Positions 21,536 through 36,768 of a DNA stretch of 64,000 nt are shown one piece after another. Source of the DNA: an uncultured cyanobacterium (GTDB lineage: Bacteria; Cyanobacteriota; Cyanobacteriia; Cyanobacteriales; Microcystaceae); NCBI GenBank assembly GCA_903887375.1, contig CAISPN010000094.1, positions 1 through 64,000 of the forward strand, given 5' to 3'. A program made the translations under genes and the position numbers. How positions within the stretch are numbered: position 1 is the first letter of the stretch; the number at the start of each line of letters is the position of its first letter. A model generated the notes under the pieces. That model did not search any database, was not told the DNA's origin, and worked only from the letters and a program-made list of their open reading frames with translations.

Positions 21536-23074
21536 TTAAACTAAATAGTTATTTTTGAGCTGCTCAATAATTTCATCATAGATTTGACTATTAATTCTAG
21601 ATATCCTTTTGCCATTTTCTAATTTGAAATTTTTAATAAAGAAATTTATTGTCAACTCAACATAAAGTACCGAATCTTCATCATGGTTAATAGCAGTAAT
21701 TCTAATTTGGGGATCTTGCCATTTAAGTCGAGGCTGCTTGAATTTCTCTTTTAACCATTGATTGATTTCCATAACATAGTCATCTAATCTTGTTTCATCT
21801 CCTTTGGGATTGGCTATTTTTTGGTATAGTTTAGAAATCCTGGATTTTAATAAATTTATTTTTCTTTCCCACTCTTGGGAAATAATATACGCATCCTCAT
21901 CAAGCAAATTAGGATCTCTAATGAGATCACGATACCATTGTTTGACTAATTCTATTAAGCTATCTTCTTGTTGTTGTTCTTCTGTGCCAACTAATTCTAA
22001 AACTCCTTGGTATTCTTGTTGAACATTTGCAATTTCATCACTGGTGAGTCCTCCTTTTTCTGCAAATTGTATAGTTGCTACCAAAGCATCAAGGCAGAGC
22101 GATATCTCTTCGAGCTTTTCATCAACTCTATGCTCTGCTAATAATTGTTTTTGTCCTAGTTCTTGTTGCTCTTGTAGCTCCGGCTCTTGATAATATTTAT
22201 CTATTAGTTCAACTTTTTGGTCGATATCGCCTAGAGTATTAGGATGCGCCATTACAATTTCATAAGCTACATGCCTAAGCTGTTCAAAATCACAAGAGGT
22301 AGGTACTTCTATTGTTACGCAAGATTGATAATAGGAAGTAGGCCGGCTCAAATTAACAATTTTCTGTCCTTGTAGAACGCTATTGGGAATATATATATCA
22401 CTATGTGTGCTAGATATATAGAGTTGTGTAACTCTTACGCCAATCTTTTTAAGAGTGCCGATAGTTCCATCTTCTAAAGATAGTACATCCCCAAAGCGAA
22501 ATGGGGTATCAATCAAAAGAACTATGCCACTGAAAAAATTTGATAGTATATCTTTAACAGCAAAACCAATTACAAAGGTAGCGCCTCCTAGCGTAACCCA
22601 AATACCCGTTAAATCAACTCCCAGAAATTTAAGAGCAAATGCTCCTCCCAGGATATAGATAATTACAGGGATAACAGCCTCGACAATTGGGAGCAAAACA
22701 TCATCCCACATTGCCTCGCTCTCTTTGGTATAGCTTTTCAAGTAGTAAATGATCACTTGATTAAAAATTTGAACAAGCCAAAAGGTAATAATTACAATCA
22801 AACTTACATCTAAGATTGCAAATACTTGTATTGGTATACTTAAGGATTTCCATTGATGATGTAGGTTAAATTTTACGCCCAGTATCAGATAAACAATTAA
22901 AATAGGATAACTAGATACAATAAGGCTAACTAAAGCTATATCAGTCTCTAAGCGACGGAAAACAGACTTAAGTCCATAAAAAAGGATTAAGTACAGAAAA
23001 ACCAACCCTAACAAAAAAAGAGCAAAAGATAACAAGGCTTTATTTTCCAGAATATAATTTGATATGCTCATCAT
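21536..23074 (-). CDS. Mechanosensitive channel, MscS family
   Basis: 512 residues. N-terminal TM helices (about 13-33, 40-65, 80-100, 130-155), then the MscS pore helix and beta domain: LGGATFVIGFAVKDILSNFFSGIVLLIDTPFRFGDVLSLEDG. The C-terminal cytoplasmic region is long (about 330-510), helical and charged, and unlike E. coli MscS. It is clearly paralogous to the adjacent STAS-fused channel over its whole length but ends where the STAS domain begins there. ATGA overlap (23071-23074) couples the two genes. Confidence 0.93.
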   Translation of the reverse strand: MMSISNYILENKALLSFALFLLGLVFLYLILFYGLKSVFRRLETDIALVSLIVSSYPILIVYLILGVKFNLHHQWKSLSIPIQVFAILDVSLIVIITFWLVQIFNQVIIYYLKSYTKESEAMWDDVLLPIVEAVIPVIIYILGGAFALKFLGVDLTGIWVTLGGATFVIGFAVKDILSNFFSGIVLLIDTPFRFGDVLSLEDGTIGTLKKIGVRVTQLYISSTHSDIYIPNSVLQGQKIVNLSRPTSYYQSCVTIEVPTSCDFEQLRHVAYEIVMAHPNTLGDIDQKVELIDKYYQEPELQEQQELGQKQLLAEHRVDEKLEEISLCLDALVATIQFAEKGGLTSDEIANVQQEYQGVLELVGTEEQQQEDSLIELVKQWYRDLIRDPNLLDEDAYIISQEWERKINLLKSRISKLYQKIANPKGDETRLDDYVMEINQWLKEKFKQPRLKWQDPQIRITAINHDEDSVLYVELTINFFIKNFKLENGKRISRINSQIYDEIIEQLKNNYLV

Positions 23075-24975
23075 TGAAACTGTAATTTGAGGCTAGGTAA
23101 AAGTCTTTCTAGATTTTTGAGAGATTTGTTCTGCCAGGGTATATTATTGGAGCCTAGAACAATCAATTGAGTCTCCTGTTGCTCTCTAAGGCTAAGTATA
23201 AAACTTGCTAGCTCGTCAACTCCTTGGCTATTTATAGAGGTTAAGTTTTGCAAGTTTAATGTTAAAGAAGATGGGGATTGTTGAGATAGCTGATGCAATA
23301 AATTATGAACTTCTGTATAGTCATCTAGATCTAGATGCCCCATAAAGCTCACAGTAGCAGTGGAAAAATCATAATTGATGATAAAATTTTCATCTTTGAT
23401 CTGCTTAATCTCTGAAGTATAATCAAGACTTTTAATATATTTCATTATTTCTTGATAAATTTGACTATTAACTCTTTGGGATCTTTTACTATCTTCTAGT
23501 TTTAGATCGTCAATGAAGAAATCCAGAACAAACTTGACATAAAAAATAGAATCTTCATGATTAATAGCAGCCATTTGGATCATAGGAGCTTGCCATCTCA
23601 TCCGTGGCTGCTTAAATTTTTCTTTGAGCCATAAACTTGTCTCGGTTATGTAGTCATCTAATCTAGTATCATCAGGTTGTGGATTGGCGATCTTTTGATA
23701 AAGTTTTTGCATTCTAGATTTCAAAAGATTGATTTTTCTTTCCCATTCTTGAGAAATGATAAAAGAGTCATCATCTAAAAGATTGGGATCTCTAATTAGA
23801 CTGCGATACCATTGCCTAACTAGTTCTATTAGAGCTTCCTCTATTTGATCTTCTTCTAAGATAAAATTCGATCTATTTTCATGATTAACTTGTAAACCGA
23901 TTAGTTCCAAAATTCCTTGAAATTCTAGTTGAATGTTTTCAATTTCATCTTGAGTTAAAGATCCTTTTTCTACAAATTGTATAGTGGCTACCAAGGCTTC
24001 TAAAGATTGATCTATTTCTTCTAATTTTTGATTAACTAAATCTTCTGAAATTAATCTTTGCCTGCCATTTTCTTGTTGCTCTTGTAAAATAGGATTTTGA
24101 AAATATTGATCTATTAATTCTAATTTTTCTTCAGTATAACCAAGGGTATCAGGATGAGCTAGGATGATATCATGCATAGCTTTTTTAACTTGCTTGAGAT
24201 CATATTTTAGGGGAATCTCCAATGTTACAGAAGATTGATAATAAGGAGTAGGACGGCTCAAATTAGTGATCTTGTGTCCTTGTAGAACGCTATTTGGAAT
24301 ATAAATATCACTATGAGTACTAAAAATATAGAGATGTGTAACCCTTACTCCAATCTTTTTGAGCATACCGATAGTACCATCTTCTAAAGAGAGGATATCT
24401 CCAAAGCGAAATGGGGTATCAATCAGCAGAACTATACCACTAAAAAAATTAGCTAGTATATCCTGCAGGGCAAAACCAATTACAAAAGTAGCCCCGCCAA
24501 GAGCTACCCAAATTCCGGTTAAATCCACACCAAAGGATTTAAGAATAAATACCCCTGATAGAATATAAATAATTACGGGTATAACTGCTTCTAAAATCGG
24601 TAGAAGTACATCATCCCACATCGCCTCAGTTTGTTTAGTATATTCCTTTAGATAGTAAATAATCACTTGAGTAAATAGCCCTATAACCCAATAGCTAACT
24701 ATCACAATTAATACTGTATTTAAAACTTTTGTTAATAGCTCAATATTTTTTGTAAATGAGAAAGATTTCAAGCACAGTATGATAAAAACACTCAAAATAG
24801 GATAGCTTGAAACATTGAGAGTAACTAGGGCAAAATCTTTCTCAAATTGACGAAAGATCTTTCTTAATCCATAAAAAAGAAATAAGTAAAGAAATAAACT
24901 TCCGCCTAATAAAGTAGCAAGAGGAATCAAAATATTGTTTTCTAGTATTTGATCGATTGCTAGCATATTATTCAA
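23071..24975 (-). CDS. MscS-family channel with C-terminal STAS domain
   Basis: 634 residues. Residues 1-520 match the neighbouring MscS paralogue (TM bundle, then GGATFVIGFALQDILANFFSG and IDTPFRFGDILSLEDG). Residues about 525-634 form a STAS domain very like the free STAS protein next door (shared IPWQxKSLKNLExLLPxLKLQ). At the STAS phosphorylation site the channel reads N-S-Q-G (Q584) where the free protein reads N-S-S-G (S64). The domain should therefore be unphosphorylatable at that position. It is coupled by overlap to both neighbours (4 bases and 8 bases). Inference: the domain competes for, or binds, the partner-switch components and tunes gating. Confidence 0.92.
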   Translation of the reverse strand: MNNMLAIDQILENNILIPLATLLGGSLFLYLFLFYGLRKIFRQFEKDFALVTLNVSSYPILSVFIILCLKSFSFTKNIELLTKVLNTVLIVIVSYWVIGLFTQVIIYYLKEYTKQTEAMWDDVLLPILEAVIPVIIYILSGVFILKSFGVDLTGIWVALGGATFVIGFALQDILANFFSGIVLLIDTPFRFGDILSLEDGTIGMLKKIGVRVTHLYIFSTHSDIYIPNSVLQGHKITNLSRPTPYYQSSVTLEIPLKYDLKQVKKAMHDIILAHPDTLGYTEEKLELIDQYFQNPILQEQQENGRQRLISEDLVNQKLEEIDQSLEALVATIQFVEKGSLTQDEIENIQLEFQGILELIGLQVNHENRSNFILEEDQIEEALIELVRQWYRSLIRDPNLLDDDSFIISQEWERKINLLKSRMQKLYQKIANPQPDDTRLDDYITETSLWLKEKFKQPRMRWQAPMIQMAAINHEDSIFYVKFVLDFFIDDLKLEDSKRSQRVNSQIYQEIMKYIKSLDYTSEIKQIKDENFIINYDFSTATVSFMGHLDLDDYTEVHNLLHQLSQQSPSSLTLNLQNLTSINSQGVDELASFILSLREQQETQLIVLGSNNIPWQNKSLKNLERLLPSLKLQFQ

Positions 24976-25312
24976 CCTGTAATTTTAAACCTGGGAGAAG
25001 CTTTTCTAGATTTTTTAGGGATTTGGCCTGCCATGGTATATTTTTAGAGCCAATTACAACTAACTGTACATTTTTTCTTTTGCGAAACCCAATTACAAAT
25101 TTTGAAAGCATGCTAATTCCAGAACTATTTAAAAAACTTAAGCCCTTGAGATTCAAGGTCAAAATTTCACTGGCAGTAGCAGATTGCTCTAATAGGCTGA
25201 CAATTGGAGCATAATCTATAGTTCCACCAAGGCTGATATCACCTATAAAATCAACTGAAGAAGTTTTTTCAATATACTCTACTGAATATTTTTGTCCCTG
25301 TACTTTGCTCAT
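24968..25312 (-). CDS. STAS-domain anti-sigma factor antagonist-like protein
   Basis: 114 residues, a single STAS domain. The conserved site is LKGLSFLNSSGISML with S64 at the position phosphorylated in SpoIIAA-type proteins. The C terminus shares IPWQAKSLKNLEKLLPGLKLQ with the domain fused to the adjacent MscS. It overlaps that channel gene by 8 bases and follows the GHKL-type kinase gene by 7. In the known partner-switch scheme it would be phosphorylated by that kinase and dephosphorylated by the REC-PP2C protein. Confidence 0.92.
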   Translation of the reverse strand: MSKVQGQKYSVEYIEKTSSVDFIGDISLGGTIDYAPIVSLLEQSATASEILTLNLKGLSFLNSSGISMLSKFVIGFRKRKNVQLVVIGSKNIPWQAKSLKNLEKLLPGLKLQVE

Positions 25313-25319
25313 ATTTTTC

Positions 25320-25862
25320 CTAAATAGTTAGTTGTACCATAGTTGTAATTTGCCAAAGATCATCTCTATTGGGTAAATTTTGTATTTTCCAGCCTAGTAG
25401 AGCCTGATGATCATGGGCAATAGTTATTAGACCTAAGCCAGATTCATTATTATTATTTATAGCATTAGATTCAATTTGCTCTAAATATAGACTTTGGAGA
25501 TCACCGGCTAAAACTTTCTCAATAGTTTGCTCAAGTTTAGTACATGATAATCTATCAGTATTATTAATCGTGGTTAGTATTATTTCTTGATCTAATAAGT
25601 ATAGATTTAAGCTAATTTGCTGGCTGCTATCTCTATGAAATTTGAGAGCATTTTCTAGTATTTCATTGGCTATGTAACTGATAGAAGATTCTAAATCTTT
25701 GCTAGCTAAAAAGGTCGCAAAGTACTGGCCGCAAAACTGGGCTGTAATAATATTGTTCTGCCAGCGCTCTTGGCTAGAATAAGAATAAGTTCCGAATCTC
25801 AGCTCTAGGGATTCGCTTATTTTGGGTAAGTAATCAATATAGTTTCCATATGTGCGACTCAT
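25320..25862 (-). CDS. GHKL-type kinase/anti-sigma-factor-like protein (SiaB-like)
   Basis: 180 residues. An N-box-like ISYIANEILENALKFH (about 81-96) and a G-box-like ESGLGLITIAHDH near 140 place it with the small HATPase-like proteins of the SiaB/slr1861 group, the kinase arm of PP2C-STAS partner switches. There is no dimerisation or phosphoacceptor domain, so it is not a normal histidine kinase. It sits between the phosphatase gene (2-base gap) and the STAS gene (7-base gap), as expected for a three-component switch. Confidence 0.82.
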   Translation of the reverse strand: MSRTYGNYIDYLPKISESLELRFGTYSYSSQERWQNNIITAQFCGQYFATFLASKDLESSISYIANEILENALKFHRDSSQQISLNLYLLDQEIILTTINNTDRLSCTKLEQTIEKVLAGDLQSLYLEQIESNAINNNNESGLGLITIAHDHQALLGWKIQNLPNRDDLWQITTMVQLTI

Positions 25863-25864
25863 AT

Positions 25865-27049
25865 TTACTCCGCCTTTTTTTTGATGACAACAAGGGTTAT
25901 ATCATCAAAAATTTTCTGCTGCCCAATAAACTCTTTGAGATCTGCGATGATTGCCTCTTTGACCTGTTCGGGAGATAAATGCCAATTTATACTGATGACC
26001 TCACATAACCTATCTAAGCCATATTGCTCATCATCCATGTTCTTGGCTTCTGGAATCCCATCAGTATAGAGGACTATGCCATCATCGCCTCCTAATTCAA
26101 TAATTGTATTATCAATGTATTGTCCAATTTCAGCATCTAAGCCAATAGGAAAACCCAAATCTAAAGTATTGATCCGCTCAATCTTTCCTCCTTTTTTAAC
26201 CAAAATTGTTTCCTCATGTTGGCCGCTGATACTCAGTTTACCCTCAGCGTAGTTAACTAAAACCAAGCTCAAGTTTTTTTCTGATTGCATGCGCTGCAAG
26301 TTTTTATAAAGGGTACGATTGAGAGTATCTAAAAAACGAACAAAGTCAAATTCTTGAATTTCTTTGATAGTGCGCACCGCGGTTTGGGTCATCACCATCA
26401 GTAAACCACTTTCTAAGCCATGTCCAGTGACATCCCCCATAGCAATAGTAACAATACCATCAGTATAGAGAACATCATAGTAATCCCCACCAACTTCATC
26501 TGCTGGCTCCATATAGCCTGCAATATCGAGATCTTGAATCTCTGCCAATTCCTCAGTTCTGGGTAAAATTAGCTGCTGCATTTGTCTGAGCATGTCTAAT
26601 TCGTTTCCCATACGGATATTTTCTCTTTTGAGGATTTCTTCTGCCTCAACTCTCTTGAGATGATCTCCATAAGCTCTAGAGTGATAGCGAATCCTAGCAA
26701 TCAACTCTGTTGCATCGGGTAGTTTTACTAAGTAGTCATTAGCACCAAGGGCAAAGGCCTTAGCTTTGATTATAGGTTCTTCCTTGCTAGATAGTACTAC
26801 TAGGGGCACATTAAATGTAGGCGCATCTTGAGCTCGCAAAAACTTCACTAACAATAGTCCATCTAGGCCGGGCATGACCAAATCTTGGAGAATTACTGTG
26901 GGTTTGTATTCTTTTGCTACTTTTATTGCCAAGCTGGGATCGCTGCAATAGTTGAAATCTATATCGGTTTCCGGTTCTAACATACGACGAATTCCTTCAC
27001 CAATAATGTACTGGTCATCGATTAAAAGAACACGAATTGGATCATTCAT
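25865..27049 (-). CDS. Response regulator with PP2C (SpoIIE-type) phosphatase output
   Basis: 394 residues. Receiver domain 1-125 with LLIDDQ (D11, D12), phosphoacceptor D56 in ILQDLVMP and [10 protein letters not shown] helical linker (about 125-165) follows, then the SpoIIE-type PPM phosphatase with metal ligands in DEVGGDYYD, GDVTGHGLESGL, LYTDGIPEA and FDDITLVV. Its first ~140 residues are near-identical to the hybrid kinase encoded upstream. The architecture matches HsbR- or RsbP-like regulators that dephosphorylate STAS proteins. The receiver is a natural target for the CheA homologue or the hybrid kinase. Confidence 0.95.
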   Translation of the reverse strand: MNDPIRVLLIDDQYIIGEGIRRMLEPETDIDFNYCSDPSLAIKVAKEYKPTVILQDLVMPGLDGLLLVKFLRAQDAPTFNVPLVVLSSKEEPIIKAKAFALGANDYLVKLPDATELIARIRYHSRAYGDHLKRVEAEEILKRENIRMGNELDMLRQMQQLILPRTEELAEIQDLDIAGYMEPADEVGGDYYDVLYTDGIVTIAMGDVTGHGLESGLLMVMTQTAVRTIKEIQEFDFVRFLDTLNRTLYKNLQRMQSEKNLSLVLVNYAEGKLSISGQHEETILVKKGGKIERINTLDLGFPIGLDAEIGQYIDNTIIELGGDDGIVLYTDGIPEAKNMDDEQYGLDRLCEVISINWHLSPEQVKEAIIADLKEFIGQQKIFDDITLVVIKKKAE

Positions 27050-27130
27050 TTACTCATAGTTCCTCTGGTGACTAAGTCTTTCGCTGCTTGGGGTATTCTA
27101 TAGCAGTATAAGTTAGAAGGTAGCCTGGTT
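27047..27130 (-). pseudogene. Decayed 3' fragment of cheB
   Basis: Read on the minus strand, the gap before the REC-PP2C gene ends in KDLVTRGTMSK and a TGA that overlaps the next ATG. This matches the end of the intact Che[12 protein letters not shown], which overlaps the hybrid kinase start in exactly the same way. Upstream bases (RIPQAA) also resemble CheB GMPKVA after an internal deletion. It is the scar of a tandem duplication that copied the cheB 3' end together with the receiver coding region. Confidence 0.75.
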
Positions 27131-27190
27131 AGCATTCTGGTTTTTCTATGAGTTAGGGGGAATCAGTTCTCCATTAACTTTGATGCTCAT

Positions 27191-29131
27191 TTAATTAAGT
27201 AATTGATTAACTTGATTTAAAAGAGAACTGTAATCATAATTTCCTTTTTGTAAAATATTATTTACATAACCACTTAGTCTTTGCCGATCATCTGAGGTTA
27301 AATCCTTAGCTGTAATTACAACCACTGGAATATCTTTCCATTGAAAATTTTTGCGCAATTCCTCAATAAATTGAAATCCATCCATTTCCGGCATCATCAG
27401 ATCTAGAAGAATTAATTTGGGTATTGACTGTTTTACCACTTCTAAAGCACTTATCCCATTGCAAGCTTCCTTTGTAGTTAAACCAATTTTTTCTAATTGA
27501 CTATGTAATATATCACGGTTATTACTCTCATCATCAACAATCAAAACATAGCCACCACTTTCAGAAGAAATGTATTTATTTAGGATCAATTTTATTTTTT
27601 CACCACATATTGGCTTGACTAAGTAATCAGATGCACCAAGAGTAAAGCCTAATTTTTTATCAGTAACAAAACTAGAAATAATTACTGGTATTGAAACTAA
27701 TTCAACATCTTCCTTGATTTTGCTTAGTACATTCCATCCGTCTATTTTTGGCATTATGATATCTAAAATAATAAGATCAGGATGATATTGTTTTGCTAAC
27801 ATTAACCCATCTTCAGATTGGCTAGTTGAAATCAAATTAAAGCCCTGAGGTACCAATATTTTTTTAATCATATCGGCAGCATTGGGATCATCATCAATTA
27901 CTAAAATGGTTTTAAACTCAGGATTATTAATTTGAGTTATTTTGGTCACAAGTTCTACATTATTTTTATCTATATTTTTATCTATAACTGTTAAAGGAAG
28001 AGCAATTGTAAATGTAGTCCCCTTTCCATATATACTATCGACTGTGACATCGCCACCCATCATTTCACAAAATCTTTTAGTAATATTCAACCCAAGTCCA
28101 GTACCACCATATTTGCGTGTGGTTGAAGCATCAGCTTGAGAAAAAGGCTTAAATAATTTTGTTAATTGTGCTGGAGTCATTCCAATACCACTATCGGTTA
28201 CTTTCATAGAAATCCAATCTTGTGAAACCTTTGTATATCGTTCGATGCAAAGAGTTATGTCACCATGATCAGTAAATTTACTAGCATTGCTTAGAAGATT
28301 GAAGAGAGATTGACGTATTTTAGTCAAGTCAGCATGCATTGTTCCAATATTTTCTGCAATATTAATTTTGAGAACATTACTATTTTTCTCAATCAAAGGA
28401 TTTATCATACTAACTACATCTTTAACCATTTGGTTAATGTCAAAGGTTTCTAAATAAAGATCCATTCTGCCTGCTTCTATTTTGGAGATATCAAGAATAT
28501 CATTGATTAAGCTTAAAAGATGTTTACCTGCACTTTTTATTTTTCCAAGATCAGATACAAATTCTTCTTCTCCCATATCTTGAGCTTCTTCTTCAAGGAT
28601 TTCGCTATAGCCAATAATGGCATTGAGCGGGGTTCTTAATTCATGGCTCATGTTAGCAAGAAAGTTACTTTTGGTTTGGCTTGCCTCTTCTGCCTCTTCT
28701 TTAGCTAGTTTTATACTTTCTTCAGCTTCAATTCTTTTGAGATGATTACCATATGCTATGGAATGGTAACGAATCCTGGCAATCAATTCTGCTGCATGGG
28801 GCAGTTTAACTAAATAGTCATTAGCTCCCATAGCAAAAGCCTTGGCTTTGATTTCACCATCATCCTTACTGGATAGTACGACTAAGGGGATATCAAATGT
28901 AGGAGAATCTTGGGCACGCAAAAACTTGACTAACAACAATCCATCTAGGTTTGGCATTACCAGATCTTGGAGAATTACTGTCGGCTGGTATTCTCTTGCT
29001 ACCTTGATTGCCAACATGGGATCACTGCAGTAATTGAAATCAATATCAGCTTGCGGTTTTAACATGCGACGAATTCCCTCAGCAATAATGGGCTGGTCAT
29101 CGATTAAAAGGACACGAATTGGATCATTCAT
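27191..29131 (-). CDS. Hybrid histidine kinase, REC-HisKA-HATPase-REC-REC
   Basis: 646 residues, soluble. REC1 (1-125, phosphoacceptor D56, near-identical to the REC-PP2C receiver). HisKA has phosphoacceptor H163 in [12 protein letters not shown]. HATPase carries VTDSGIGM and [17 protein letters not shown]2 has VIDDDPN and [14 protein letters not shown]3 has IVDDES and [11 protein letters not shown]. No sensor or membrane domain is present, so REC1 is the input, presumably fed by the CheA homologue. ATGA overlap with cheB upstream. It occupies the place where Wsp systems carry the WspR output gene. Confidence 0.95.
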
Positions 29132-30099
29132 TTACTAATAGTTCCTTTAATGACTAGATTTTTAATAGAAGTAGCGATTTGCTCAAGTGGCAGAATTTCG
29201 CTAGCTGCATTTAGTTCTACTGCTACTTTGGGCATTCCATAGACAGCCGAAGTGGTCTGGTTTTGGGCAATAGTATGCCAACCTTTTAAACGAAGGAGTT
29301 TGAGTCCTTGGGCTCCATCTTTACCCATACCAGTTAACAGTACTGCAATACCAGGTCTACTCCAATTTTTAGCTAGACTTTCAAAAAAAACATCCACAGA
29401 AGGGCGATAGGCATAATTTACTGGATTTTCAGTATAAGAGAGGGTGAGATTATGAGTCAGATAGAGATGATCATTAGTAGCAGCTACTAATGCTTCACCT
29501 GCGCACAAGCGATCTCCTTCTTTCGCTGTTCTAACTTTTAAAGAGGTTTGTTGATCTAACCACTGTGCCAAACCTAAGGAGAATTGTTGATCAATATGTT
29601 GGATGATGACTATTGGTGAGAGAAAGTTGGCAGATAAATGAGACAGAATAACTGAAAGTGCTTGCGGTCCTCCAGTGGAGGCGCCGAATACTACAAGTGG
29701 TGCATTAATAGTTTTCTTGAGTCCTTTTTTTATTCCCCTGAGTTTGCCAACAGTTGAAATTTTTTGGAGAAGAGATTGTTGACTATTGTCTGCTGCTATG
29801 TTTACCGAATCAAGAGCTCCATAACCTATAGCTTCAAAAATTTTGGCTGTGTTTTCTTCTGAAGTGATGGTAACCAAGACAATTGGACAGGGGGAATGGA
29901 GCATGATTAAGCGAGTGGCTTGGACACCATCAAGTACTGAAATTCTCAAACCCATTAAGATCAAATCAGGTCGATCTTCTAGAGATCTAGATACAGCCTG
30001 CTCACCATTGTGGGCAATCCAAGCAATTTCATGTTCGCTTGGGATCATTTCACGCAAGGTCTTGACAGTAGCTAAATTATCAGCAATAGCAATACGCAT
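29128..30099 (-). CDS. cheB: CheB-like methylesterase with degenerate receiver (WspF-like)
   Basis: 323 residues. The C-terminal methylesterase keeps its catalytic triad: S141 ([10 protein letters not shown]), H168 (IIQHID), D261 (GMGKDGAQG). The receiver is degenerate: the paired acidic residues are D7-N8, the phosphoacceptor position is Gly ([14 protein letters not shown]50) and the conserved Lys is absent (ALDSVN). The esterase may therefore act without phosphorylation control. The family role is removing methyl groups from the chemoreceptor. It follows cheA by 4 bases and overlaps the hybrid kinase gene by 4. Confidence 0.95.
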
Positions 30100-30103
30100 A
30101 TTT

Positions 30104-32809
30104 CTAAGTTCCTAATAGATTAGCCACAGCTTCAACCAAGGTATTATCTTCAAAACTACTTTTAGTCAAATAATAATTAGCACCAGCTTCCATCCCCTGA
30201 AGTCGATCTTCTTGGCGATCTCGATAAGAGACAACAATGATAGGTAAAAAAGAGTAGATAGGATGATTGCGAATATTTTTGATTAATTCAATTCCATTCA
30301 TTCGCGGCATATCAATATCACTAATCACCAAATCATAAGGTTTGGTTCGTATAGCGTTCCAGCCCTGTAGTCCATCTACAGCAACATCGACTTGATAACC
30401 TCTGTTTTCTAATAATTTACGCTCAGTTTCTCTGACTGTTATGGAGTCATCTACCACCAGAATAGTCTTAGGTTGAATTACTTCTTGACTTTCTATGTTA
30501 TTTAGGTCAATTTTGGTCAAGTGACTAGTATCTAAGAGTTGATTGATAGATTGTATTAAATCATTGGTATCAATAATCAAAACGGGCGAGCCATCTTGAT
30601 CTAGAGCCAAGGCGCTGATATCTTTTACCTTACCCAATCTGGGATCTAATGGTCTGACTACTAGATCCCTCTCACCTAAAAAGCGTTCAACTAAAACTCC
30701 ATAACTGTCTGAGTCATCACTAATAACTACTACCGAGAATTGGTTTTCTGGTTCTACATTTATTTCATAAAAGCCGAAAATCTGATCTGCTGCAATCAGT
30801 CCAATATTTTTGCCATCAATTGTAAAAAACTGTCTACCTTCTACTGTGGTAACATCTGCGTTCTTCAACATGATGATCCGATCTATTCTAGCTAGTGCAA
30901 AAGCGTAAACCTCTCCAGCAATTTCCACCAGCAAAGTACGAATTACTGAAAGGGTCAGGGGAAGCTGGAAGTGAAAACTAGTTCCCTTACCCAATACCGT
31001 AGAAACTCTGACATTGCCAGCAACTTCTTGAGTCATACTCTTGACGATATCTAGTCCTACTCCTCTTCCAGAAATCTCTGTAACTTCTTTGGATGTTGAA
31101 AAGCCTGGTAAAAAGAGAAATTCTAATAGCTCAGATTTACTCATTTGCTCTGCCATTTCAAAAGAAGAAAAGCCGCGATCAATCACCTTGGCTTTCAATT
31201 TTTCTATATCTATTCCTCTTCCATCATCGCTGATTGTAATTGCCAGCATCCCACCGCGATGAAAGGCTTCAAGCTTTATGTTGCCTTGGGCTGGTTTGCC
31301 AATAGCTATGCGTTCTTCTGTAGTTTCTAAACCATGATCTAAGGCATTGCGCAGAATATGAGTCAGAGGAGCTTCTAATTTTATAAGAATATCTCGATCT
31401 ACAGGTGTACTCTTGCCAATTATTTCGAAATTGACTTGTTTGTTTAATTGACGAGCTAGGTCTCGCAACATACGAGGAAACCCTTGTACACCATCACTAA
31501 AAGGTCTCATGTTGGTAGTAATTACCTCGTTATAAAGACGATCGGAAAGACTAATGGTGCGGTAATCATATTGCTCTAGCTCTTGAATCCTCTGCCCTAT
31601 AACCTTGATTTGCTGTTGCCCCTTAGCAATTAGATCTCTTAGCAAGTCATCTAGTTGGTTATCATTTTTGTACATGCTCAAATGGTTGCGTAAATCTTCA
31701 ATCGACTTGATCAGATCCAATTGTTGAGATTTAAATTGAATCAGAGAATTTGTAAAAGGCTCTAACCAATTAGCGCTGATCAATGCCTCACCAGCTAGTC
31801 CCATGATTCGGTTGAGATTATCGGCATTCACCCGAACTATTCTTTCTTGTCCACTATGGCTAACTTTAGTAGGCTCTTTATGTATTTCCTGAGTTGAAGT
31901 TACTACTGTTTGTGATATTTCTTGCTGTTGAGCTTGGGGATTGAGAATGTTGGCTATTGCTAGATAGATTGATTGCAGTTTAGTCTCATAAGATTCTAAT
32001 TCTTTAACGTCAACCTGGCTGATTACTGAAAGTTCATCAACTCCTTGTAGTAGAATGTCAACATCTTTTGATTGGATAAGAATTTGTTTTTTCTGAGCTG
32101 CGACAAAACAGTCCTCCATCACATGAGCCAAGTTGACGACACTACCAAATCCTACAATTCTAGCTGCTCCCTTGACTGAATGAGCAGAGCGCATGAGAGC
32201 TTCTAAAGCTTGAATTGAGGTAGGATTGCTTTCTAGAGAGAGTAGTCCATTATTGAGGATATTGACCTGCGTCTCAACTTCCAAACGAAACAGCTCAAAC
32301 ATTGATTCATCTTGAATTATGTCATTATGCGCTGGGTTGGTTTGTACAACTGGAAGTTTGGGTAGATCTTGGATTGCCGGCTCTAAGTTTACCGAATCTG
32401 TAATATCTGTAATAGTAGAACTAGATGCAGCTACTAAAGCATTCTTAATTCTAGAGATTTCCCAAGAGTCATTTTCTAGCCAGTTTGGCCATTCCTCTTG
32501 GCTAACCTGACTCATTTTTGTAATTAAAGTTGTGCTTTGACTAACCAATTCTAGTTCAGCTTGACTAAAAACATGATTTTGCCTGAGAAATTTAGCCAGG
32601 TAATACTCTAGAGAATGCGTCAATTCGACTACTGCATTTCTTTCAATTAGATTAGCCATTGCGTAGATAATATGGACAGACTCTATACTTTTTTCTAGAG
32701 CTGATTCGTCGGGATTTTGAGTCTTTAGCAGTTCGATTTGCTCTTCTAATAAAGCTACCTGCTGGGCTACCTCATGCTTAAAAAGTTCTAATATCGAGTA
32801 GTTATTCAT
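30104..32809 (-). CDS. cheA: CheA-like hybrid kinase with C-terminal receiver (WspE-like)
   Basis: 901 residues. HPt1 (1-110) has H46 but in a degraded motif (VHIIYAMA). HPt2 (about 165-285) has the canonical H210 in SAHSVKGAAR. A dimerisation segment follows, then HATPase with N-box HILRNALDHGLE (about 484-495), SDDGRGID and ISGRGVGLDIV. The CheW-like domain covers about 620-760. The receiver (781-901) has VVDDS and phosphoacceptor D831 in VISDIDMPRMNG. It is the central kinase of the cluster; likely targets are its own receiver, REC1 of the hybrid kinase and the REC-PP2C protein. Confidence 0.96.
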   Translation of the reverse strand: MNNYSILELFKHEVAQQVALLEEQIELLKTQNPDESALEKSIESVHIIYAMANLIERNAVVELTHSLEYYLAKFLRQNHVFSQAELELVSQSTTLITKMSQVSQEEWPNWLENDSWEISRIKNALVAASSSTITDITDSVNLEPAIQDLPKLPVVQTNPAHNDIIQDESMFELFRLEVETQVNILNNGLLSLESNPTSIQALEALMRSAHSVKGAARIVGFGSVVNLAHVMEDCFVAAQKKQILIQSKDVDILLQGVDELSVISQVDVKELESYETKLQSIYLAIANILNPQAQQQEISQTVVTSTQEIHKEPTKVSHSGQERIVRVNADNLNRIMGLAGEALISANWLEPFTNSLIQFKSQQLDLIKSIEDLRNHLSMYKNDNQLDDLLRDLIAKGQQQIKVIGQRIQELEQYDYRTISLSDRLYNEVITTNMRPFSDGVQGFPRMLRDLARQLNKQVNFEIIGKSTPVDRDILIKLEAPLTHILRNALDHGLETTEERIAIGKPAQGNIKLEAFHRGGMLAITISDDGRGIDIEKLKAKVIDRGFSSFEMAEQMSKSELLEFLFLPGFSTSKEVTEISGRGVGLDIVKSMTQEVAGNVRVSTVLGKGTSFHFQLPLTLSVIRTLLVEIAGEVYAFALARIDRIIMLKNADVTTVEGRQFFTIDGKNIGLIAADQIFGFYEINVEPENQFSVVVISDDSDSYGVLVERFLGERDLVVRPLDPRLGKVKDISALALDQDGSPVLIIDTNDLIQSINQLLDTSHLTKIDLNNIESQEVIQPKTILVVDDSITVRETERKLLENRGYQVDVAVDGLQGWNAIRTKPYDLVISDIDMPRMNGIELIKNIRNHPIYSFLPIIVVSYRDRQEDRLQGMEAGANYYLTKSSFEDNTLVEAVANLLGT

Positions 32810-32815
32810 GTAATT

Positions 32816-33502
32816 TTATATCTCTAGAATCCTGGTATTGAGAGTGTAGAATATCAACTCAGCATCAAGAAAGTTCACCTTTTGTCCCTGCCAGTCTAGA
32901 ACATATTGAGTGTATGTTTCTGTAGCCTTGGTGATGACAACTGGTGCTTGTTTTAATTCTTGGGGACCGAAACGGTAAACACCCAAAACTTCATCTACCG
33001 GAAAAACCCAACGAAATTCGGTATTTCCCACTACAATCATTTTTTGTCCAACCTCTTTGGTAATATCAGAATCAACATTTAAAGACAAAAGATGAGCCAA
33101 TGAAACACACATTAGTGTTTCTCCCCTGATATTAGTTAAACCTAAAAACAGTTGATTACTGCGATTGGGCAAACGGTGAACAATCCTAGGAACCACTATC
33201 TCTTGCAAAGAACTAACGGGCAATGCTAACAACTCTTGGGAAATGCGAAAAATCATCAGAGATATCGTTTCTTTGATGGAAGTATTGATCACTTGAGTAA
33301 CAGTTTCAGCCATTATCCCAGTCCAATATTCCAGAGACTCTAGTGTGACCTCCTGGTTGAATAGACTTCTTCCTGTTTCTAAGTAAACTGGACAATTGTG
33401 GCAATGTATAACCGAATTGAGCTGTGGACAACTCAAATCACCTTTGACGCCTATCTCATTCCAACAACTGATTGAGGATTGTTCTGGTTCAAATGCCTTC
33501 AT
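32816..33502 (-). CDS. cheW: WspD-like CheW adaptor with four N-terminal cysteines
   Basis: 228 residues. The N-terminal extension carries C13, C25, C34 and C37 (SCWNEIGVKGD, then SCP, then HCHNCPVY), a pattern like that of Pseudomonas WspD. A CheW domain follows (about 80-225: MIFRISQELLALPV...TNIRGETLMCVSLAHLL). CheW couples receptor to kinase. The cysteines could bind a metal or cluster. Six bases upstream of cheA, four bases downstream of the receptor gene. Confidence 0.93.
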   Translation of the reverse strand: MKAFEPEQSSISCWNEIGVKGDLSCPQLNSVIHCHNCPVYLETGRSLFNQEVTLESLEYWTGIMAETVTQVINTSIKETISLMIFRISQELLALPVSSLQEIVVPRIVHRLPNRSNQLFLGLTNIRGETLMCVSLAHLLSLNVDSDITKEVGQKMIVVGNTEFRWVFPVDEVLGVYRFGPQELKQAPVVITKATETYTQYVLDWQGQKVNFLDAELIFYTLNTRILEI

Positions 33503-33505
33503 GGT

Positions 33506-35095
33506 TTAGTCTTTGGAATTGGAGATCTTTGATCTTAGACGGGTAGAAGCATCATTTAAATCAGCTAGAGCCGAGTTAGTGTCTTGAATTGCTACTTTTG
33601 TCTGCTCTCCAGCTTGGCTCAATTGCTGCATTGCTTCGTTAATTTGTTCAGCTCCTTGAGATTGTTCATGCATACCTTGTGAGACATCAACAAAGCTGGG
33701 ACTCAATCCCTGTATTTGTTGGTTTACTTGAAGGAGTTGATTAGAGATATTCTGTACTTTGTTTGTACTTTCATAGACATCGTTGCTAAACTTGTCCATT
33801 TGCATCACTCCAGCAGAAACAGCTACTTGCATTTCTTCGACCATTTGCTTAATTTCTAGAGTAGCTACTGCAGTTTGATCTGCTAGACGCCTGATTTCCC
33901 TAGCCACTACAGAAAAACCTGCACCATATTCTCCGGCCTTTTCCGCTTCAATAGCCGCATTGAGAGAAAGTAGATTAGTCTGTACTGCTACGTTGGTAAT
34001 TGTTTCTACTACACTATTGATGTTGTTAGCCTTGTTGTTCATGGTTCCTAATTTGGAAACAATTGAAGTAGTACCGTCGGATAAATTCACCATCACCTTT
34101 TGCATCTCCTGGAGCTCATCTTGACTATTTCCAGCTTCTATAGCAGTTTTCTGTGACAACTGGGCTAAGCGATCCATCGTTTGAGCTAATTGCCTAGAGG
34201 TGGCAGCAATTTGTCTGGAACTAGCAGAAACTTCGTTAGTTGAGGCATTTTGCTCAGCAACTGTTGCTTCTAGCTCTTTGCCCGATGCACCGATTTGATT
34301 ACAGGCAGTTACAATAGCTATACAGGATTTTTGCACTTGACGAGTAAGGTCGTTTCCTAGGTATTTGCCCAAAAATATCGCTAGGATTGGTCCCAATATC
34401 AAAGCTAGAGTTGTCAATAAATTCGAAAGACTTATAATGCTTTTGGCTTGTTTACCTGCATCATTTGCAATTTTGGTATTGTAGTTGATTAGATCTAAAA
34501 GAGCTTGAGTTGCTTTTTTTTGAGCGGGTTTAAATTCTTCTGCTCTGTATTTATTTACGTCCTGGTGAACTTTATTGGCTTGTACTGCTTTTAAATATGC
34601 AGGACTATTTTTTCTATTTGCCAAAAGTTCACTTATGATAATACCATTAGGCTCGGGAACCACCTGAAACTGTTTATAAAGTTCTAGCAAGCGATCTTTC
34701 TTCATGTTAAAATCTGCCCAAAGCGGTTTTGCAATATCGTAAAGTTTTTGCTCTTCTGGATCACGATCCGCCCCTTCATAAAGCTCTCTTCCTTTTTCAA
34801 TGTCCTTGTTAATCGAATCTAATTTTATAAATTCTTGATTTTTTTCTTCTGCTGTAACATCCTCATTTAATATCAAGCGCAGGATAGATTGAATTCGAGC
34901 ATATCCTTGATTCATTTGCCAAAGACCATTAACACTAGGAAAGGTATTGTCAGAATAGGTTTGCAGTTGTGCTGCTAACCGAGCATTGTTAAACAGACCA
35001 AGCAAGGCAACTAGAAAGACCAAAAAACCCATCAGAAAAAAGCCTCTTAAAAGCTGCTCTTGTAAAGTTTTGGCCTTGAGAATAAAATTAAACAT
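33506..35095 (-). CDS. WspA-like methyl-accepting chemotaxis protein
   Basis: 529 residues. TM1 (about 17-36); a helical periplasmic domain (about 37-220), probably a four-helix bundle; TM2 (about 225-245); and a cytoplasmic signalling domain with the hairpin tip AVQTNLLSLNAAIEAEKAGEYG and AREIRRLADQTAVATLEI followed by VSAGVMQMDKF. The tip and the following stretch are strikingly like Pseudomonas WspA, which responds to surface contact or envelope stress. No C-terminal tether pentapeptide. Sole receptor in the cluster. Confidence 0.95.
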   Translation of the reverse strand: MFNFILKAKTLQEQLLRGFFLMGFLVFLVALLGLFNNARLAAQLQTYSDNTFPSVNGLWQMNQGYARIQSILRLILNEDVTAEEKNQEFIKLDSINKDIEKGRELYEGADRDPEEQKLYDIAKPLWADFNMKKDRLLELYKQFQVVPEPNGIIISELLANRKNSPAYLKAVQANKVHQDVNKYRAEEFKPAQKKATQALLDLINYNTKIANDAGKQAKSIISLSNLLTTLALILGPILAIFLGKYLGNDLTRQVQKSCIAIVTACNQIGASGKELEATVAEQNASTNEVSASSRQIAATSRQLAQTMDRLAQLSQKTAIEAGNSQDELQEMQKVMVNLSDGTTSIVSKLGTMNNKANNINSVVETITNVAVQTNLLSLNAAIEAEKAGEYGAGFSVVAREIRRLADQTAVATLEIKQMVEEMQVAVSAGVMQMDKFSNDVYESTNKVQNISNQLLQVNQQIQGLSPSFVDVSQGMHEQSQGAEQINEAMQQLSQAGEQTKVAIQDTNSALADLNDASTRLRSKISNSKD

Positions 35096-35134
35096 AATTT
35101 TTAACCACTGTATTTTGTAAGTTTGAGAAATCTG

Positions 35135-36313
35135 TTAAGTATGGCTCAATCGTTCTAAACGTTTTTTTAGAATTTTAACCTCATTAGGATCTCCTCTTTG
35201 TTCTTTGATTAACAAAAGGTATGTTAGGGCTTGGCGATCTTGTGGATCGAGATAAAGCGCCCTTTGAAAGCACTCTTGGGCTTCAATAATATTGGAAGAA
35301 GCTTGATATAACTCCCCTAACAGTATATGTCCTTCTGTGTTTAAAGAAAACTGATTTAGATGATTTTTACATAAATTGATAGACTCTTCTATTTTTCCCA
35401 TATTAGCTAATTTTCTTGCTTTAACTAAGTATGATTCTTCTTCTTTAGGCTGATCTGGCAAAAATTTTTGTGAGGAATCTTTAGGGTAAATGATTAAAGG
35501 CTCTTGGAAGGAATCTTTAGGTAGAGAAGATTGCTTTTGAGGTTGAATTTTCTGATAGGCAAAAGTGAACGGTTTATTCAAACTAAGATAAGACTTTAAA
35601 GAAACATAGATGGTTTCTGCCGAGCCGACAAATAAAATGCCTCCATTTTTAAGAGATCTTGTAATTTGTTCTATTAATTTGTGGGCAATCTCACTATCAA
35701 GATATATCAGCAAGTTGCGACAGAAGATAACATCATAATGATTTTCTGGAAAATTATGAATATTCAATATATTTCCCTGTTTAAAATGGACTATCTTGGA
35801 AACTTCTGGTGAAAGTTGATATCCCTGTGTAACTGGCTGAAAATAATGTTGATACTTAAAATCTCCCCGAAACGAATTTTTTCCATAAATTGCTTTGGTC
35901 GCCTTGGCAATTGCCCGATGACTTATGTCAATTGCCTCAATCGTGAATTTTTCAGGGAGAAGCCCAGCTTCTAAAAGACTCATGGCTATTGAATAGGGCT
36001 CTTCTCCAGTGCTACAAGGGATACTCAATAGTTTTATTGGCTTAGTTAATTTAATACTAGATGCATATGATTTTAAATACTCAAATGGTTGTGTATCCCT
36101 AAAAAACCAAGTTTCTGGAACAACTATTTCTTCGATTAAGTGTGTAAATTCCTCAGATGAATTCTTGAGTTTTTTATAATAGGAATCATCATCAAGATTC
36201 AATTTATTTTGTCTTTTTTCTATAATATAGCTCAATCTTTCTTTGCACAAAACCGTAGAATTAAAGCCAATCTTGATTTTGAGTAGTTCTTCAATTTCTT
36301 TTACAAATTTCAT
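35135..36313 (-). CDS. cheR: CheR-type receptor methyltransferase with TPR tail (WspC-like)
   Basis: 392 residues. CheR N-terminal helical domain (about 1-75), then the SAM-dependent methyltransferase (LLSIPCSTGEEPYSIAMSLLE, HYDVIFCRNLLIYLD, ILFVGSAETIY). A C-terminal TPR pair (about 295-390) follows: ISLCKNHLNQFSLNTEGHILLGELY and AQECFQRALYLDPQDRQAL. The TPR tail is the WspC signature. It methylates receptor glutamates. ATGA overlap with the upstream cheW. Confidence 0.95.
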   Translation of the reverse strand: MKFVKEIEELLKIKIGFNSTVLCKERLSYIIEKRQNKLNLDDDSYYKKLKNSSEEFTHLIEEIVVPETWFFRDTQPFEYLKSYASSIKLTKPIKLLSIPCSTGEEPYSIAMSLLEAGLLPEKFTIEAIDISHRAIAKATKAIYGKNSFRGDFKYQHYFQPVTQGYQLSPEVSKIVHFKQGNILNIHNFPENHYDVIFCRNLLIYLDSEIAHKLIEQITRSLKNGGILFVGSAETIYVSLKSYLSLNKPFTFAYQKIQPQKQSSLPKDSFQEPLIIYPKDSSQKFLPDQPKEEESYLVKARKLANMGKIEESINLCKNHLNQFSLNTEGHILLGELYQASSNIIEAQECFQRALYLDPQDRQALTYLLLIKEQRGDPNEVKILKKRLERLSHT

Positions 36314-36768
36314 GAGGCTCCCTCCATCAAAAGAGTAAATGGCTCAGAATCTTTCAAGATATCTTCTATTTCTATGCATTGAATTATCTCATTTTGATTA
36401 ATCATAATCTTAGAAATATAAGTGGATTTGGTATAATTAATATCTGGCTCTATCAATTCAGAAATCGGTTTATTGATTGTTTCAGTAACCTTCTCAGCAA
36501 TCAAGCCCAAACAGCGAATCATATTGTCTTGGTTATAATACTTGAGAATGATGATACGAGTAGTTAAATAAATATGTTTAGACTCTTGTTTAATTAAAGA
36601 AGAAAAATCAACTACCGGTACTATCAAACCTCGATAATTAAAAAAGCCAGCCATGTAGCTAGGCGCATTATAAACTTTTTTAAGCACTACCATTGGAATG
36701 ACTTCTACCACATGGGTAGTCTCTAGTGCGTATCGATTTTCTTCTATCTGAAAAAGTAAAAATAGCAT
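36310..36768 (-). CDS. cheW: CheW adaptor (WspB-like), first gene of the chemosensory run
   Basis: 152 residues, a single CheW domain: FLLFQIEENRYALETTHVVEVIPMV, FNYRGLIVPVVDF and the CLGLIAEKVTETI segment. It is the first clear gene of the 16.5-kb minus-strand run and overlaps cheR by 4 bases. The start lacks an obvious ribosome binding site. Confidence 0.92.
   Translation of the reverse strand: MLFLLFQIEENRYALETTHVVEVIPMVVLKKVYNAPSYMAGFFNYRGLIVPVVDFSSLIKQESKHIYLTTRIIILKYYNQDNMIRCLGLIAEKVTETINKPISELIEPDINYTKSTYISKIMINQNEIIQCIEIEDILKDSEPFTLLMEGAS

Follow-up and report, generated by a model that had tools for sequence, protein, structure and literature searches.

We analysed a 64,000-nucleotide stretch of DNA, referred to below as the window, from an uncultured cyanobacterium of the family Microcystaceae. 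Positions 21536-36768 of the window hold a full chemosensory cluster with an MCP, CheA, CheB, a CheR carrying C-terminal TPR-like repeats and two CheW proteins, followed by genes for a PP2C phosphatase, an slr1658-type kinase, an slr1659-type STAS protein and MscS-type channels (Table 1). All lie on the reverse strand in the order CheW, CheR-TPR, MCP, CheW, CheA, CheB, hybrid histidine kinase, receiver-PP2C, 180-aa kinase, free STAS, MscS::STAS and MscS; CheA, CheB, one CheW and the histidine kinase were called by Pfam, and the MCP, CheR and the other CheW were read off their translations. The second mscS gene and the end of the fused gene overlap by four bases. The fused gene may start at the TTG at 24975 (634 aa) or at an ATG at 24966 (631 aa), and the argument made here is the same either way.

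Table 1. Features of the chemosensory, partner-switch and channel genes in the window, with the evidence for each assignment.
Feature	Position	Strand	Evidence
Second MscS-type channel, 512 aa, without STAS domain	21536..23074	-	64% identical to fused channel
MscS-type channel with C-terminal STAS fusion, 634 aa from TTG	23071..24975	-	PF00924 E 2e-11; NF047705 105.9 bits, residues 525-631
Fused STAS domain, residues 525-634	23074..23403	-	BLASTP 42% identity to free STAS, E 8e-29; predicted STAS fold
Gln584 codon (CAA), equivalent of SpoIIAA Ser59 / SiaC Ser69; Ser in 64/64 other homologues	23224..23226	-	Family alignment
Ser583 codon (AGC), predicted equivalent of the phosphoacceptor SpoIIAA Ser58 / SiaC Thr68, kept	23227..23229	-	Alignments
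Free STAS protein, 114 aa, slr1659 superfamily, N62-S63-S64-G	24968..25312	-	NF047705 134.7 bits, cut-off 100; family alignment
Free STAS codon S64	25121..25123	-	
Free STAS codon S63	25124..25126	-	
180-aa slr1658-superfamily / SiaB-like (DUF6272) serine-threonine kinase	25320..25862	-	NF047703 161.6 bits, cut-off 100; PF19788 27.9 bits, cut-off 26.6
Receiver + PP2C (SpoIIE-type) phosphatase, 394 aa	25865..27049	-	PF07228 E 3e-35; PF00072 E 1e-18
Upstream chemosensory genes (CheW, CheR-TPR, MCP, CheW, CheA, CheB, hybrid histidine kinase)	27191..36768	-	Pfam and translations; synteny with L066 and L071

Judged by its gene content and order, the run appears to be an operon in which a chemosensory cluster (MCP, CheW, CheA, CheB) has a SiaABC-like partner switch as its output stage, followed by MscS channels. 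The CheB/PP2C-kinase-STAS order is also found in other cyanobacteria (e.g., L066, L071, L074, L083, and L117), in some of them with mscS, and at L064, L065, and L069-L071 the module is immediately followed by mscS genes of this subfamily. Strict co-occurrence of the MscS subfamily with the module was ruled out, as an slr1659 gene is missing from the surrounding 1.5 kb or so in several relatives. The hybrid histidine kinase (27191-29131) is missing from the syntenic locus of a genome of the same genus (G386), where the PP2C gene directly follows CheB, and its N-terminal receiver is very like that of the PP2C protein, as if from a recent duplication. At a locus in another genome (G048, L178), fragments resembling CheA, CheB, PP2C and the channel C terminus lie within about 1.5 kb and resemble a decayed version of the operon.

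Both STAS domains pass the curated 100-bit cut-off of the slr1659 superfamily, and the kinase passes that of the slr1658 superfamily while falling below the cut-off of the narrower slr1658_cyano equivalog (166.4 vs 200 bits); it matches SiaB kinases and DUF6272 more weakly. A profile search found it to be the single above-cut-off slr1658-type kinase in this genome. With its G386 orthologue the kinase shares only 54% identity, while the PP2C protein (83%) and the free STAS protein (77%) are more conserved. The fused channel can be assigned to the MscS family by its Pfam MS_channel beta-domain (44.2 bits, cut-off 20.2), and the nearest solved structures of its paralogue are YnaI/MscS. A full-length channel model was too poor for use (pLDDT 64), but the fused domain is predicted to adopt a STAS fold (pLDDT 82.8). 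In Foldseek, this model matched SiaC best by E-value and then anti-sigma antagonists including SpoIIAA and RsbV, all at modest E-values of 1e-4 to 1e-3. The likeness to SiaC is structural: a Pfam scan of the free STAS protein returned STAS alone, near its cut-off, and no DUF1987 (SiaC) match.

A comparison with known systems shows both likenesses and disparities. The slr1658/slr1659 superfamily of cyanobacteria resembles the locus in that its cut-offs are exceeded by both STAS domains and by the kinase, and in that the kinase and STAS genes are adjacent; here, unlike in that superfamily, a STAS copy is fused to a channel, has Gln in place of an otherwise invariant second serine, and lacks three residues of the beta2-alpha1 loop. 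In Synechocystis, an slr1658 mutant recovers poorly from iron limitation (PMC7555055). SiaA-SiaB-SiaC of Pseudomonas aeruginosa likewise combines a PP2C phosphatase, a DUF6272-type kinase and a STAS-fold substrate, and the SiaC motif LNTSSI matches LNSSGI here. SiaC itself, however, belongs to DUF1987 and activates a diguanylate cyclase, whereas the locus in the window has an slr1659-type STAS protein, no adjacent cyclase, and channels downstream. The anti-sigma antagonists SpoIIAA and RsbV share the STAS fold and the acceptor position, but the domains described here score below the TIGR00377 cut-off (19 vs 53 bits) and are paired with an slr1658-type kinase, and no sigma factor was found among the neighbouring genes examined in the window. 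SulP/SLC26 transporters are membrane transport proteins with a cytoplasmic C-terminal STAS domain. They resemble the fused channel in this arrangement but belong to a membrane family other than MscS and carry a different STAS family.

The initial annotation of this DNA proposed paralogy between the channel-fused domain and the free STAS protein, and this was borne out: the two are identical at 48 of 115 positions (E 8e-29, BLASTP) and share most of their last 53 residues (30/53). The difference it had noted between the two motifs, N62-S63-S64-G in the free protein and N582-S583-Q584-G in the channel, was likewise confirmed. Its placement of the SpoIIAA-type phosphoserine at S64/Q584, however, was off by one residue. 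Because N-S-S-G falls on D57-S58-S59-G in profile alignments to solved SpoIIAA chains, and Ser58 is the phosphosite of Bacillus subtilis SpoIIAA (Ser57 in B. sphaericus) (PMC3517971), the phosphosite is assigned to Ser63 of the free protein and Ser583 of the channel. In RsbV, phosphorylation occurs on Ser56 (PMC7340262). The SypA site is Ser56, which the printed primers place as the first serine of D-S-S-G, and the neighbouring Ser57 was mutated separately as a contact residue (PMC10120452). For SiaC, which with SiaB is the nearest known system by type of kinase, mass spectrometry located the phosphate on T68 of LLYLNTSSIK, directly after the Asn (PMC7647112). In cyanobacterial Ssr1600, S59 and S60 were mutated only jointly and modelling favours S59, the first serine of D58-S59-S60 (PMC12329169), so that the second serine might also carry some phosphate. 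By homology, then, the phosphosite would be the residue right after the Asp/Asn, a serine in both proteins of the window, and the channel would therefore retain it. Ser583 is the very "neighbouring Ser583" that the initial annotation had named as a possible refutation, and its description of the channel domain as non-phosphorylatable does not hold, with Gln584 one residue past the acceptor equivalent. An unphosphorylatable decoy thus does not appear to follow from the sequence; such a decoy, if real, would rest on impaired catalysis or docking rather than on an absent acceptor.

The change at Gln584 is more than ordinary variation, since all 64 other homologues aligned have Ser at this position. 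The Asn, first Ser and Gly are present in all 65 aligned domains, and the second Ser is replaced, by Gln, in the fused domain alone; N-S-S-G is an observed hallmark of these homologues, the free STAS protein included, and lies outside the curated NF047705 definition. In the SpoIIAA-SpoIIAB complex, the second-serine residue is said to contact a kinase arginine that stabilises the transition state (PMC10120452), and in SiaC, Ser69 lies in the interface with SiaD (PMC8457831). By analogy, a change at this position could slow phosphorylation or alter partner choice. In SypA, S57A did not phenocopy S56A (PMC10120452), and biofilm formation was still restored by SiaC carrying S69A as its single change (PMC8457831).

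Gln584 is one of several departures in the fused domain, which breaks nine of 33 near-invariant columns, defined as those in which 90% or more of the other rows agree; the next worst row breaks four and the median is one. These departures are Y11F, loss of a Gly from the beta2-alpha1 loop, P35E, I36V, F60S, L61I, S64Q, I66V and S70A, numbered within the domain (protein numbers are higher by 520). Every one lies within domain residues 1-72, with none in the 14 conserved columns beyond (hypergeometric P 0.0024, an optimistic value since the data had been seen before the split point was chosen), and every conserved position of the last 40 residues is kept. Counterparts of F60 are described as interface residues in SypA (Phe53; PMC10120452) and SiaC (Tyr65; PMC8457831). 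The alpha3 helix, which belongs to the RsbV-RsbW interface (PMC7340262), lies in a region that the fused domain retains. The STAS tree gives the fused domain an end branch of 1.49, where the median is 0.15. A smaller tree puts a path of 2.4 between fused and free STAS; the two channels are separated by 0.65 in the channel tree, so that the fused STAS would have changed several times faster than the channel if both were duplicated together. At a locus of another cyanobacterium (G125, L070:8486-9366), two tandem free slr1659-type STAS genes lie between kinase and channel, and one of them departs at four near-invariant positions.

The intact fused domain is known from one genome. Searches of 386 Cyanobacteriota genomes, 50 genomes of the family and GTDB 220, each a sample rather than an exhaustive set, revealed no second intact fusion, and among the 386 Cyanobacteriota genomes no long frame other than the fused channel contained an above-cut-off slr1659 match. 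A 510-aa frame in G021 was rejected as a second fusion, being a GC-rich read-through ahead of an ordinary NSSG STAS with no channel. Aligned relatives of the channel stop about where the STAS domain would begin, or carry short unrelated tails. We also found no MscS-STAS fusions in the open-access literature, which is weak evidence of absence. The locus of G386 (L066) is syntenic with that of the window, and its orthologous channel ends in QIQQIKNDNFTIDHYAQD followed by a stop codon, which resembles the start of the fused STAS domain (score 48, reached by none of 20,000 shuffles). After the stop and in frame, LSWTQKRYLERLLPDIHLKFE resembles the end of the domain (0/5,000 shuffles), and aligning the DNA reveals a large internal deletion. 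Because the G386 channel keeps in-frame remnants of both ends of the STAS domain, the fusion is older than the split of the two species, the domain having been lost in G386, as read from this one draft assembly. G386 is the only readable genome among the sister species, as the contigs of G387, the third genome of the genus, end inside the channel.

The initial annotation held that the fusion probably arose by duplication of the adjacent STAS gene, and an origin by duplication fits. In the channel phylogeny, the two species contribute four sequences that group in a single clade (100/100), within which A and B orthologues pair off clearly (99/96 and 100/99), so the channel duplication is specific to the genus. 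In outgroups, among them G129, G376 and G125, a single channel gene comes after the STAS gene. The order STAS, MscS::STAS, MscS fits a doubled [STAS-mscS] unit, and a tandem doubling of this unit followed by fusion would fit these observations. For the two STAS domains in the window, the STAS tree is compatible with a sister relationship but does not establish it (AU p 0.26-0.38); a weak placement is expected, as the branch of the fused domain is long.

The fused domain is most likely a relaxed or re-purposed appendage. We give about an even chance to a domain under relaxed constraint that would be a poor and non-essential substrate of the kinase, on a channel that works largely without it. 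This reading is favoured because of the loss in the sister species, the long branch and the broken conserved positions. In the ancestor of the genus, the [STAS-mscS] pair would have doubled in tandem, and read-through would then have joined the second STAS to the channel preceding it. The free STAS protein would have remained strongly constrained and is likely the substrate on which the kinase and phosphatase work. The fused copy has retained its fold, Ser583 and its C-terminal half and has changed fast at Gln584 beside the acceptor and on loops whose counterparts in related systems touch the kinase or effector. It does not appear to be dead or a pseudogene, since it has a full open frame scoring above the family cut-off and its acceptor and C-terminal half are intact, and we infer weak phosphorylation and a minor role in gating.

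The retained Ser583 and fold, the presence of kinase, phosphatase and channel in one gene run, and the mscS genes of this subfamily that directly follow the module elsewhere would also be consistent with a functional switch, in which the kinase phosphorylates Ser583, the PP2C protein removes the phosphate, and the chemosensory array directly tunes gating or placement of the channel. Given the altered partner-facing positions, the loss of the domain in the sister species and the adjoining paralogue channel without STAS, we consider this rather unlikely. Intact conserved columns past domain residue 72 (14/14), among a region whose alpha3 counterpart contributes to the RsbV-RsbW interface, together with the reported contact of the second serine with the kinase Arg, could instead point to a pseudo-substrate or tether: the C-terminal region would still dock the kinase, Gln584 and the altered loops would slow phosphoryl transfer, and the channel would hold the kinase at the membrane in competition with the free STAS protein. 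This is unlikely, as Ser583 is present, the SypA S57A and SiaC S69A phenotypes speak against it, and two of three kinase-contact elements are altered, so that docking should weaken too. The permanent kinase ligand of the initial annotation is now one of several possible readings. That a docking-competent but catalytically hampered STAS copy, competing with the free one for the kinase, physically ties the chemosensory array to an MscS-type channel via the PP2C protein and the slr1658-type kinase seems improbable. Finally, the uneven crowding of changes on one half of the domain might reflect a new partner, with the fused STAS no longer serving this kinase and binding a different protein or the cytoplasmic domain of its own channel; with no candidate partner, and with the loss in the sister species speaking against an important new role, we regard this as very unlikely.

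The correction of the register matters, as a retained phosphosite would otherwise have passed as "dead". The two species make an MscS-STAS fusion visible in two stages, intact in one and as two in-frame remnants in its sister. We found no direct target of an slr1658/slr1659-type kinase-STAS pair in the open-access literature, and the mscS genes that follow the chemosensory, PP2C, slr1658 and slr1659 module in several cyanobacteria are a concrete candidate for such a target. If the fused domain works, it would provide a direct link from the partner switch to an ion channel.
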